The notes under the pieces: model-generated | Database searches by the model: none | Told to the model about the DNA's origin: nothing | Seen by the model: the letters and a program-made list of their open reading frames with translations, nothing else | Position numbers and translations under genes: made by a program | Shown here: piece by piece, positions 22,247 to 25,495 of the stretch | How positions within the stretch are numbered: position 1 is the stretch's first letter | Layout: every line of letters begins with the position of its first letter | Source: an alpha proteobacterium HIMB114 | GTDB taxonomy: Bacteria > Pseudomonadota > Alphaproteobacteria > Pelagibacterales > Pelagibacteraceae | Assembly (NCBI GenBank): GCA_000163555.2 | Contig: ADAC02000001.1 | Coordinates: 930,001-994,000, forward strand | DNA: 64,000 nucleotides | Direction: 5' to 3'

Positions 22247-22365
22247 ATTAGATATAGCGCCAGACTAATAATAATAATTATAGGTAAAACAAGAATAAAA
22301 CCTATAATTTTGTTTTTAACAAAAAAATAATCCAAAACTCCAAGTAAAATTTTTAGTGTTTTCAT
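22243..22365 (-). CDS. 40-residue single-helix membrane peptide
   Basis: The frame starts MKTLKILLGVLDYFFVKNK and ends in a strongly hydrophobic helix with five consecutive isoleucines. Both ends overlap neighbours by ATGA: the start with the DnaJ-like gene stop, the stop with the AsmA-like start. That makes translation very likely. The layout (short amphipathic head, then one helix) resembles the DUF5989 group of very small membrane proteins, but I am not certain of the match. It would sit in the inner membrane, possibly as a subunit of the neighbours' complex. Confidence 0.6.
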   Translation of the reverse strand: MKTLKILLGVLDYFFVKNKIIGFILVLPIIIIISLALYLI

Positions 22366-22850
22366 TTATGTATTTCTAAAAGTATATCTCTTGCGCGGTT
22401 AATTTTACTAGCTAATTCATTATCTCCTGCCTTGTCTGGATGCGCCTCTTTTATTTTAGTTTTGTGAGCATTAATTATCTCTTGTCTTGAGCAATTTCTC
22501 TCTAACCCTAAGATTTTGTAAGCATCATTCACTTCACTTATTGAAGAGGTAAATGTTCCATTTGATCTCATTCTTCTCACTTTTAAAATTGCAGAGATAA
22601 AACGATAAAGATAAATAATATTAACAAAGTTAAACATACTTCTTTTGAGTGCAGTTCCTATAACAGCAAAGAAAGGTAGTGAAAGTAAATACCTACCAGC
22701 TAAAAATAATAAAATAATTGCAGTAACTGAAAGAATTATAATCCCAAATTTAAACATTCCAGAAAATGTTTTTTTATCCATATTGGAAATTAGCCAAAGG
22801 ACACCATATAAGATAAGAAATATTATTAAGCTTAAAACAATAAGATTCAT
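22362..22850 (-). CDS. Membrane-anchored DnaJ-domain protein
   Basis: The 162-residue protein has an N-terminal helix, a second hydrophobic segment near 34-55 and a third around 57-85. A C-terminal J domain follows, beginning EVNDAYKILGLE with the HPD motif at HPDKAG. This TIM14/Pam18-like layout (membrane helices followed by a J domain) is common in alphaproteobacteria. The J domain would stimulate DnaK at the membrane; clients are unknown. The start codon is only two bases from the divergent ptrB start, so the promoters must lie inside the neighbouring coding sequences. Confidence 0.8.
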   Translation of the reverse strand: MNLIVLSLIIFLILYGVLWLISNMDKKTFSGMFKFGIIILSVTAIILLFLAGRYLLSLPFFAVIGTALKRSMFNFVNIIYLYRFISAILKVRRMRSNGTFTSSISEVNDAYKILGLERNCSRQEIINAHKTKIKEAHPDKAGDNELASKINRARDILLEIHK

Positions 22851-22852
22851 TT

Positions 22853-24925
22853 ATGAAATTAGTACCTAAATTAAGAAAAGAAAAAAAGGTGATAAATATT
22901 CACGGCGAAGAATTGGTTGATGATTATGCCTGGATTAAGCAACAAGATTGGCAAACCGTTCTAAAAAATCCATCAAAATTAAATAAAGAAGTTTTAAAAT
23001 ATATTGAAGATGAAAATAACTATAAATCTGAGCAACTTAAAGATTTAACGGATCTTAAAAAAAAAATTTTTAATGAACTTAAAGGAAGAATAAAAGATAA
23101 AGACTCATCTGTTCCTGTTAATGACGGAAAGTTTAGTTATTATAGCAAATATTTAGAAGATGCTGAGTATCCTCAATTTTTAAGAATAAATAATCTAGAT
23201 AATAAAGAAGAAATTATCTTAGATGCAAATCAAAAATCAAAAAATTTCAAATTTTTTAATCTAAGTTCTGTTAGTCATAGTCATGACCATAAATACTTAG
23301 CCTATAATGTAGATACAAATGGAAGCGAACATTATGATTTAACTATTGAAGAGATTTTAACGGAAAAAATTATCACCAAAAAAATTAAAAATACAACTGG
23401 TGAAATTATTTGGCACCCAAATAATAAAATAATTTTTTACACTGTTTTAGATACTAATCACCGACCAAACAAAATTTTTGCTCATGAAATAGGTTCAAAC
23501 CCTGCGAATGATCAATTGATTTATGAAGAAAAAGATGCTGCATATTTTTGCTATCCTTCATTAAGCCAAAGTAAAGATTATCTTCTGATAAGAACAGGTG
23601 ATCACCAAACCTCTGAATATTGGTTTAGTCAAATCAATGATTATAAAAACATTCAATGCTTTAAGAAAAGAACAGATAGAGAAGAATATGAGATTGATCA
23701 TGCAAATGATATTTTTTATATTCTTAATAACCTTGATGGATGTAAAAACTTTAAAGTCTCAACCGCAGAGCCTAATAATATTAATGATTGGAAAGACTAT
23801 GTTAAATATAATCCTAACCATTTATTGCTTGATTTCACAGTTCTTAAAAAATGGTTCATCTTGTTTCAAAGAGTAGATGGTCTAAATCAAATTTTAATTA
23901 AAAATTTAGAAAATTCAGAAGAACACTTAATTAAATTTGATGATGAAACTTACGAACTTTCCCTTTCTGGGCAATATGAGTTTGATACAGATTTAATTAG
24001 AATTTCTTATAGCTCACCAATTACACCAGGAACAGTCTATGATTATAACTGTAGAGAAAAAAAAAAAATTCTTAGAAAAACTCAAGAAATTCCATCGGGG
24101 TATGAAAAAAATAACTATATCTGCAAAAGAGTATTAGTAGATTCTCATGATAAGGAACAAATTCCTCTTACTATTTTTTACCATAAAAACACGCCTCTAA
24201 ATGGTGAAGCGCCATTACTTTTGTATGGATATGGAAGCTACGGAATTACTATTCCGGATAGTTTTTCTTCAAATAGATTTTCTCTAATCGATAGAGGTTT
24301 TATTTATGCTATTGCTCATATCAGAGGAGGGCGCGAAAAAGGTCAAGAATGGTACGAGAATGGCAAGTTAATGAATAAAAAAAATACATTCTTAGATTTT
24401 ATATCCTGTGCAGAATATCTTTGTGACAACCAATATACTTCGAAAGGAAAAATTATTGCGCAAGGTGGTTCAGCAGGTGGCTTATTGATGGGTTATATTT
24501 CTAATGAAAGACCTGATCTTTTTCTAGGTATAATAGCTCAAGTTCCATTTGTAGATATTTGTAATACCATGCTTGATGAAGATCTGCCTTTAACAGTAAC
24601 AGAAATTCCTGAGTGGGGTGATTTAAAAAATAATAAACAAGCTTATGAATATATAAAAAGTTATTCGCCTTATGATAATGTTAAAAAACAAAACTATCCT
24701 AACATGCTCATTACCGGAGGGATCACTGATCCAAGAGTAACCTATTGGGAAATGACAAAATGGATTGCAAAGTTGAGAGAATACAAAACAGATAAGAATT
24801 TAATTATGTTAGATATGAATATGGATGCAGGTCATAGTGGCGCAAGTGGAAGATATGATTATTTAAATGAAGTTGCACTTGCATATATTTTTGCTTTAAA
24901 AATTTCTAATAAAACCGCATCTTGA
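22853..24925 (+). CDS. ptrB: Oligopeptidase B (protease II), S9 family
   Basis: The 690-residue protein has the ELVDDYAWIKQQD start typical of PtrB, a beta-propeller region, and a C-terminal alpha/beta hydrolase domain. The catalytic triad is Ser540 (GGSAGG), Asp626 (TDPRV) and His661 (AGHSG). The GYGSYG and HIRGGREKG segments are also present. It cleaves short peptides after basic residues in the cytoplasm or periplasm. No signal peptide is seen. It is divergent from the DnaJ-like gene with a 2-base gap. Its stop codon overlaps the sigma-32-type promoter of hsp20. Confidence 0.93.
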   Translation: MKLVPKLRKEKKVINIHGEELVDDYAWIKQQDWQTVLKNPSKLNKEVLKYIEDENNYKSEQLKDLTDLKKKIFNELKGRIKDKDSSVPVNDGKFSYYSKYLEDAEYPQFLRINNLDNKEEIILDANQKSKNFKFFNLSSVSHSHDHKYLAYNVDTNGSEHYDLTIEEILTEKIITKKIKNTTGEIIWHPNNKIIFYTVLDTNHRPNKIFAHEIGSNPANDQLIYEEKDAAYFCYPSLSQSKDYLLIRTGDHQTSEYWFSQINDYKNIQCFKKRTDREEYEIDHANDIFYILNNLDGCKNFKVSTAEPNNINDWKDYVKYNPNHLLLDFTVLKKWFILFQRVDGLNQILIKNLENSEEHLIKFDDETYELSLSGQYEFDTDLIRISYSSPITPGTVYDYNCREKKKILRKTQEIPSGYEKNNYICKRVLVDSHDKEQIPLTIFYHKNTPLNGEAPLLLYGYGSYGITIPDSFSSNRFSLIDRGFIYAIAHIRGGREKGQEWYENGKLMNKKNTFLDFISCAEYLCDNQYTSKGKIIAQGGSAGGLLMGYISNERPDLFLGIIAQVPFVDICNTMLDEDLPLTVTEIPEWGDLKNNKQAYEYIKSYSPYDNVKKQNYPNMLITGGITDPRVTYWEMTKWIAKLREYKTDKNLIMLDMNMDAGHSGASGRYDYLNEVALAYIFALKISNKTAS

Positions 24926-24949
24926 AAAAATAAAAATCATTCCCATATA
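24921..24949 (+). promoter_or_regulatory. Heat-shock (sigma-32-type) promoter of hsp20
   Basis: CTTGAAA (24921-24927), a 14-base spacer and CCCATATA (24942-24949) match the RpoH promoter consensus CTTGAAA-N13/14-CCCCATNT almost exactly. The -35 box overlaps the ptrB stop codon. It lies about 65 bases upstream of the hsp20 start, leaving a leader of about 55-60 bases. Confidence 0.8.
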
Positions 24950-24954
24950 GTATC

Positions 24955-25009
24955 TATAGGTCGCTTAATGTTAGGGCCTATAAAAAAAGTACTTGCTTAA
25001 CAAAGGAGG
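24955..25009 (+). promoter_or_regulatory. ROSE-like RNA thermometer in the hsp20 leader
   Basis: Two hairpins fill the leader. The first pairs 24955-24962 with 24975-24982 (8 bp with one G-U) around a 12-base loop. The second pairs CTTGCTT (24992-24998) with AAGGAGG (25003-25009) through loop AACA, hiding the Shine-Dalgarno sequence and leaving one G opposite G in the stem. That internal G-G with pyrimidine-rich UUGCU opposite the Shine-Dalgarno sequence is the hallmark of ROSE thermometers. Melting at high temperature would expose the ribosome binding site. Confidence 0.7.
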
Positions 25010-25014
25010 AAAAA

Positions 25015-25461
25015 ATGAGTAATGCTTTATCTATATTTAATCAACTAAGACCTGTTACTGTAGGTTATGATAATATTTTCGATCATTTTGAAAAAATGTT
25101 TGAAGATGATTTTTTTAAAACACCTTCAGTAAACTATCCGCCATACAACATCGTAAAAACTGGTGAAAACCAATACAATGTTGAAGTGGCATTAGCAGGT
25201 TATAATAAAAAGGATATCGCCATCGAATATGCTGATAACCTTTTAACAATCAAATCTGTTAAAAAAGATAGTTCAGAAACTAAAGATGAAAACGGTAATG
25301 TTATTCATCAAGGTATTTCTAAAAGATACTTTAGTAAATCTTTTACAATTGCTGATGACACTGAAGTGAAAGGCGCTGAATTAAAAGATGGTCTTTTAAA
25401 AGTTTCTTTGGAAAGGATTATTCCAGAAGCTAAAAAACCAAGACAAATTGAAATACAATAA
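25015..25461 (+). CDS. Small heat shock protein (Hsp20/alpha-crystallin family)
   Basis: The 148-residue protein has a short N-terminal arm with DNIFDHFEKMFEDDFF, the alpha-crystallin domain from about YNIVKTGENQY to GLLKVSLERI, and a C-terminal IEI motif that docks oligomers. It is an ATP-independent holdase that keeps unfolding proteins soluble, and resembles IbpA. Expression seems controlled twice by heat: a sigma-32-type promoter upstream and a ROSE-like hairpin that hides a strong AAGGAGG ribosome binding site. A hairpin terminator follows the stop. Confidence 0.93.
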   Translation: MSNALSIFNQLRPVTVGYDNIFDHFEKMFEDDFFKTPSVNYPPYNIVKTGENQYNVEVALAGYNKKDIAIEYADNLLTIKSVKKDSSETKDENGNVIHQGISKRYFSKSFTIADDTEVKGAELKDGLLKVSLERIIPEAKKPRQIEIQ

Positions 25462-25471
25462 ATAATATAGG

Positions 25472-25495
25472 TAGAGGCGACATTAGTCGCCTCTA
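25472..25495. terminator. Bidirectional hairpin between hsp20 and gshB
   Basis: A perfect 10-bp GC-rich stem (25472-25481 with 25486-25495) with loop ATTA separates the converging stops of hsp20 and gshB. It probably ends transcription from both sides, although only short T-rich tails flank it. Confidence 0.7.

Follow-up and report, generated by a model that had tools for sequence, protein, structure and literature searches.

We analysed a window of 64,000 nucleotides (nt) from the genome of the alpha proteobacterium HIMB114 (Pelagibacterales, Pelagibacteraceae; contig ADAC02000001.1, positions 930,001 to 994,000), and concentrated on the leader of its hsp20 gene, which probably acts as a ROSE-like RNA thermometer. 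This gene is the only hsp20 copy in the complete 1.24 Mb genome. It encodes an IbpA-type small heat shock protein (sHsp) that matches Pfam HSP20 at 3.7e-18; its best NCBIfam model is IbpA, at a score under the cut-off of that model. The promoter, the leader and the gene comprise the following features, with positions counted from the first letter of the window.

24921-24926, forward strand: -35 element CTTGAA, of the sigma-32 (RpoH) type
24943-24949, forward strand: -10 element CCATATA, after a spacer of 16 nt from the -35 element
24955-24982, forward strand: hairpin I, 10 base pairs with an unpaired G (24963) and a 7-nt loop
24963, forward strand: the unpaired G of hairpin I, found in 44 of 46 SAR11-type leaders and in 34 of 37 leaders of a wider alpha/gamma set
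24992-25008 (25009 in the G-G register), forward strand: hairpin II, the proposed thermosensor, with its loop at 24999-25002
24993-24997, forward strand: ROSE motif U(U/C)GCU on the strand opposite the Shine-Dalgarno sequence (anti-SD); UUGCU in 43 and UCGCU in 3 of 46 relatives
25003-25009, forward strand: Shine-Dalgarno sequence (SD) AAGGAGG, of which AAGGAG is invariant in the alignment
25015-25461, forward strand: hsp20, 148 amino acids (aa)

Upstream of the start codon, the stretch CUUGCUU (24992-24998) is able to fold back onto the SD and pair with it, the 4 nt AACA forming the loop. This pairing, already pointed out in the initial annotation, can be read at 24992-25009 and is kept throughout the alignment that we built for comparison, for which hsp20 genes were gathered from 76 of 100 related genomes and from 18 named contigs. 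The alignment holds 46 distinct SAR11-type leaders, a few of them from contigs labelled Rhodospirillaceae or Rickettsiales. Within the window, U(U/C)GCU opposite AGGA in the 40 nt upstream of a start codon was found at hsp20 only, among 64 ATG-starting open reading frames (ORFs) of at least 100 aa. Hairpin II is made of the pairs C24992-G25008, U24993-A25007, U24994-G25006, C24996-G25005, U24997-A25004 and U24998-A25003, around the bulged G24995. Six pairs are retained in all 46 leaders, with C/U-UYGCU set against AGGAG in every one of them, and the equivalent of G24995 is invariant (46/46). Leaders that have lost the inner U-A pair (UUGCUA) gain a C-G pair on the outside, and a single relative, whose SD is GGAGA, shows a change of the opposite outer base to U. 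The invariance of AAGGAG leaves little room for covariation; since the SD side of hairpin II cannot vary, RNAalifold by itself found hairpin I and no more. The comparison of related leaders called for across 24992-25009 returned a pairing conserved in every case, but little covariation. In the coding sequence itself, hsp20 relatives whose protein starts with MTSKD (e.g. L023-L030 and L097-L125; the window equivalent is 25015-25029) have AGT AAG as codons 3 and 4. The two codons are fixed in about 50 genomes, although the rest of the gene favours AAA and TCT/TCA, and AGUAAG is complementary to the anti-SD strand.

The initial annotation had placed a G opposite a G in this hairpin. For the window sequence taken by itself, such a register (G24995 opposite G25006, with the outer pair C24992-G25009) has indeed the lowest energy, -6.2 vs -3.4 kcal/mol at 15 C for the bulged-G register. 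As a conserved register it was nevertheless rejected, since its outer pair (C-G or U-G) cannot be formed in 11 of 46 relatives, 3 of which have also lost a second pair, whereas the bulged-G register is kept in all 46. Judged from the alignment, the conserved register is the canonical bulged G of ROSE elements, and both registers may be populated in the genus of the window.

Hairpin I, with the inner motif UCGCU/AGGG, carries the compensatory changes. In the 46 leaders, 96% of its cells are paired and 7 of 9 aligned pairs are changed on both sides, one pair appearing as A-U, U-A, C-G and G-C across leaders. The covariation score of the whole structure is 0.354, against 0.189 +/- 0.010 for shuffled alignments and at most 0.113 when the partners were slid; none of 500 shuffles reached the observed value, and nearly all of the signal comes from hairpin I. 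The stem varies freely, yet the unpaired G and the inner GC(C/U) are kept, which suggests a role of hairpin I beyond that of a mere stem, binding of Hsp20 being one candidate. Upstream hairpins with an unpaired G are also seen in the leaders of E. coli ibpA (L092), of marine gamma-proteobacteria (L046, L047) and of the sister SAR11 family (L063-L088), the latter having three hairpins. By eye, this G lies in the 5' strand of the stem, with two or three pairs between it and the loop, and the upstream hairpins give the impression of being copies of a single module.

A covariance model built from the SAR11-type leaders alone (R1) was then searched without gene information. In its own genome it returned the hsp20 leader with 69.6 bits (E 3.5e-16), the next-best site in the 1.24 Mb having an E-value of 5.2. 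Across the order (247 genomes searched), 132 of 149 good-quality genomes match at E<=0.1; among the family genomes present in both searches, all 19 with hsp20 match at E<=1e-9, and the 6 without it give no match below 0.01. Across the class (385 genomes), 16 sites outside the SAR11 families were found at E<=1e-3, and 15 of them directly precede heat-shock genes: hsp20 in 11 cases (L131-L137, L142-L145), rpoH in 3 (L138, L139, L141) and dnaK in 1 (L140). The rpoH and dnaK identities were confirmed by NCBIfam, the L138 protein lying above the sigma-32 subfamily cut-off and below the RpoH equivalog cut-off. Weaker matches precede dnaK at L151, L158 and L162. Low-scoring class matches (e.g. L146, L149, L150, L152-L155, L157, L160, L161 and L164-L169) are followed by no heat-shock gene and were for this reason discounted as probably due to chance. 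In a search of the phylum, the best match outside the class was the leader of an ibpA-like gene (L175, E 2.2e-4), which likewise pairs CUUGCU with AGGAG. Among plasmid records, the protein most similar to the encoded one carries the label Pseudomonas aeruginosa (78%). A second model (R2), trained on a mixed set, found ten further class sites at E<=1e-3 outside its training set, and all ten precede heat-shock genes (7 hsp20, 2 dnaK, 1 rpoH; mostly called from the translated start, with one dnaK and the rpoH identified via NCBIfam). Its best match in E. coli is the ibpA leader, at a weak score (15.4 bits, E 0.54). A weak R2 match (L203, E 0.0024) stands before a gene that reads like elongation factor GreA, and may be chance.

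The RpoH-type promoter of the initial annotation stands as proposed: CTTGAA-N16-CCATATA lies at 24921-24949 and recurs in 41 distinct SAR11 promoters. In these, CTTGAA is conserved at 95-100% per position, and the -10 element, at fixed spacing, shows C at 88%, Y, A at 98%, T at 68%, A at 83% and T at 95%. The elements agree with the sigma-32 promoter consensus, and the genome holds one rpoH gene above the curated cut-off, so that promoter elements of the CTTGAA/CCATAT type, their conserved spacing and the cognate sigma factor gene are all present. Transcription is expected to start at about 24954-24956. An attempt to derive a regulon from the exact promoter pattern failed: genome-wide it has 3 sites, one of which is the hsp20 promoter, vs 4 for a reversed control pattern, and it therefore defines no regulon.

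Two further features flank the hsp20 transcription unit.

22853-24925, forward strand: oligopeptidase-B-like gene upstream of hsp20, whose stop codon overlaps the -35 box
25472-25495, no strand: terminator-like inverted repeat, a 10-pair stem with T-rich tails on both strands

The genes for glutathione synthase and glutamate-cysteine ligase lie downstream of hsp20 in convergent orientation, and the inverted repeat separates hsp20 from the former. A gene for a J-domain protein, apparently membrane-anchored (22362-22850, reverse strand), is divergent to the oligopeptidase gene that adjoins hsp20.

When compared with ROSE-like thermometers as described (PMC3669281, PMC11342760), the leader has every feature of the class that can be tested on sequence: it precedes an sHsp gene, the typical location of ROSE in the 5' untranslated region (UTR), it carries U(U/C)GCU facing the SD in the 3'-proximal hairpin, with imperfect pairing and a bulged G, and it has an upstream hairpin. 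A run of four U opposite the SD, as in FourU thermometers, is not found, the anti-SD strand being ACUUGCUU. The short two-hairpin ROSE elements of Pseudomonas ibpA are validated thermometers (PMC3669281), and the SAR11 leader resembles them in having only two hairpins, a UTR of about 60 nt, a sigma-32-type promoter and an sHsp gene. Its hairpin II pairs CUUGCU with AGGAG around the bulged G, just as the Pseudomonas structure pairs C36-G53 and C40-G50 around G39 (PMC3669281), and the Pseudomonas-like leaders L175 and L176 in turn have the same inner motif in hairpin I, U[G]CC/GGG. The published numbering of the P. putida UTR could not be brought into full agreement with L175, and the likeness is one of published pairings and motif. 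Unlike Pseudomonas ibpA, the window leader is AT-rich, has U-A rather than G-C as the innermost pair of hairpin II, and is a predicted thermometer. With the classical ROSE elements (Bradyrhizobium hspA, E. coli ibpA) it shares UYGCU on the SD, the bulged G and upstream hairpins, which in our reading have an unpaired G in the E. coli ibpA leader as well; it differs in having two hairpins, not three or four, and no match to an Rfam model. A thermometer with G opposite G and the motif CUGCU, ROSE-G, was described in 2025 on ABC transporter genes (PMC12857270). The G-G register is available in the window sequence, but the motif there is UUGCU and this register is not conserved; the SAR11 leader is better placed with the canonical ROSE-like elements.

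We read the hsp20 leader as a ROSE-like RNA thermometer of the short kind, with two hairpins, behind a promoter of the sigma-32 type, a reading to which we give a probability of roughly 0.87. The initial annotation had anticipated a compact ROSE element with two hairpins. The two hairpins, the motif and the bulged G are indeed conserved, and the model built on them recovers heat-shock leaders, but the form as such is already known from Pseudomonas (PMC3669281). On the best reading, what is new is its occurrence in SAR11: the literature searched gave no report of a thermometer in this group, an absence that is no proof of novelty, and a survey of structured RNAs in Pelagibacter mentions neither heat shock nor the ROSE element.

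We infer the following course of events. Under heat stress, RpoH would raise hsp20 transcription, as the conservation of the promoter and the presence of rpoH suggest, from a start that probably lies at hairpin I or immediately upstream of it. At growth temperature, hairpin II would pair the SD with C-UUGCU, with one unpaired G and one U-G wobble, and keep 30S binding low; warming would open this weak hairpin and translation would rise. Hairpin I would stay folded, either supporting hairpin II or serving as a binding site, and Hsp20 may additionally repress its own message, because the two residues that E. coli IbpA needs to bind its leader are conserved.

Several observations weigh against this reading. 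Scans with the Rfam ROSE models (RF00435, RF01832), suggested by the initial annotation, gave no match at gathering or permissive thresholds, either in the window, hsp20 leader included, or in the sampled relatives, and the best ROSE_2 match in the genome has 13.7 bits (threshold 65) and lies elsewhere than the hsp20 leader. The Rfam models likewise miss the gamma-proteobacterial leaders L046 and L047. A sigma-70-like TTGAAA-18-TATAGT overlaps the sigma-32-like promoter in the window, because of which sigma-32 dependence of hsp20 is only likely. Folding at different temperatures, also suggested at the outset, was done with ViennaRNA: hairpin I folds alone at 4-42 C, and hairpin II is predicted to weaken gradually from 10 to 40 C instead of melting sharply. 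Once 33 nt of the coding sequence are added, ViennaRNA prefers to pair the anti-SD strand with the start codons, and this competing fold, predicted for most leaders of the window's genus and for some other clades, leaves the SD free in a loop at all temperatures.

In the energy model, the E. coli ibpA hairpin comes out even more stable than hairpin II of the window (at 15 C in the bulged-G form, -7.8 against -3.4 kcal/mol, with -5.4 for a Pseudomonas-like leader), and temperature folding with ViennaRNA is uninformative on the switching point of the leader. Hairpin II of the window is predicted to be weaker because its innermost pair is U-A and not G-C. It has been shown in P. putida that breaking the corresponding G-C pair derepresses the gene (PMC3669281). 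On these modelled values, the leader may plausibly work at a lower temperature, in sea water.

One might speculate that the competing fold is itself part of the control. The anti-SD strand would then have two possible partners, the SD in the off state and otherwise an SD-like stretch within the first codons, which reads AGUAAG in many relatives and UGAGUAA in the genus of the window; translation would be set by the ratio of the two folds rather than by simple melting. The alternative fold is predicted to dominate in the window's genus, and in MTSKD-type relatives AGT is fixed in 47/47 and AAG in 49/49, when elsewhere in the same genes AGT encodes only about 11% of the serines and AAG about 20% of the lysines; in these clades, the pairing of native coding starts is also stronger than that of most synonymous recodings. 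Codon 2 (ACA), however, is equally fixed and lies outside the pairing, so that a general constraint on early codons may be at work; the sequences are related and the counts not independent, the synonymous tests, taken singly, are weak (fractions of about 0.02-0.13), and several clades that share the leader form the alternative fold weakly or not at all. We consider such a two-state switch distinctly unlikely, and do not regard it as the function that is conserved. It is far less probable still that the leader is an ordinary one, with a hairpin I that does no more than protect the mRNA 5' end and an SD complementarity that arose by accident. Hairpin I does lie at the predicted 5' end, and short AU-rich leaders give chance pairings, alternative folds forming easily in the predictions, but all 46 leaders keep hairpin II, no other of the 64 ORF starts of the window has the motif, and R1 finds heat-shock genes almost exclusively across the class.

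A protein may also take the leading part. Hsp20 would then bind the two G-bulged hairpins and repress its own translation until unfolded proteins titrate it, RNA melting playing a minor role. Such autoregulation has been shown for E. coli IbpA, which represses its translation by binding to its own 5' UTR and needs R93 for this, aided by Y34 (PMC10474464); IbpB, which lacks this activity, has F and Q at these positions. The window Hsp20, of the same protein family and with a ROSE-type leader, carries the equivalents of both residues, with Y in 42/42 and R in 41/42 of the SAR11-family proteins examined, and both in all 23 sister-family proteins. The unpaired G and inner GC(C/U) of hairpin I, kept in an otherwise free stem, fit such an operator too. 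The self-repression by IbpA was demonstrated in gamma-proteobacteria. In SAR11 something else could account for the conservation of these residues, K98 varies within the SAR11 family, and hairpin II alone suffices for thermoregulation in Pseudomonas (PMC3669281). A leader governed mainly by its protein is rather unlikely in our view, but operator and thermometer are compatible and not exclusive.

The thermometer reading of the SAR11 leader led, through the class searches, to leaders of other heat-shock genes. Two-hairpin ROSE-like leaders lie directly before rpoH in three other alphaproteobacterial families (L138, L139, L141, L193), with UUGCU opposite the SD in hairpin II, a bulged G, and genes that are sigma-32 genes by NCBIfam. 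ROSE-like leaders also directly precede dnaK (L140, L151, L158, L162, L192, L198), again in three other alphaproteobacterial families, and several of these carry UUGCC in place of UUGCU. The rpoH gene of the HIMB114 genome itself has a short leader with no ROSE-like element. According to a 2014 review, ROSE is always tied to small heat shock genes (PMC4166951), and ROSE-like elements were later reported on ABC transporter genes (PMC11342760); in a literature search on ROSE with rpoH or dnaK, no title or abstract reported such elements. The rpoH and dnaK leaders look like a more novel by-product of this work than the SAR11 hsp20 leader. Tentatively, they may mean that ROSE is not specific to sHsp genes, and that in some lineages the master regulator itself carries a ROSE switch.

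SAR11 bacteria are among the most abundant marine bacteria and are known for having few regulators. A covariance model trained on their leaders reaches past the Rfam ROSE models and points to the leaders of rpoH and dnaK. If our reading of the hsp20 leader is right, a conserved leader kept through genome streamlining would provide SAR11 with heat control that needs no protein, and would offer a natural model for the tuning of a thermometer to cool sea water.

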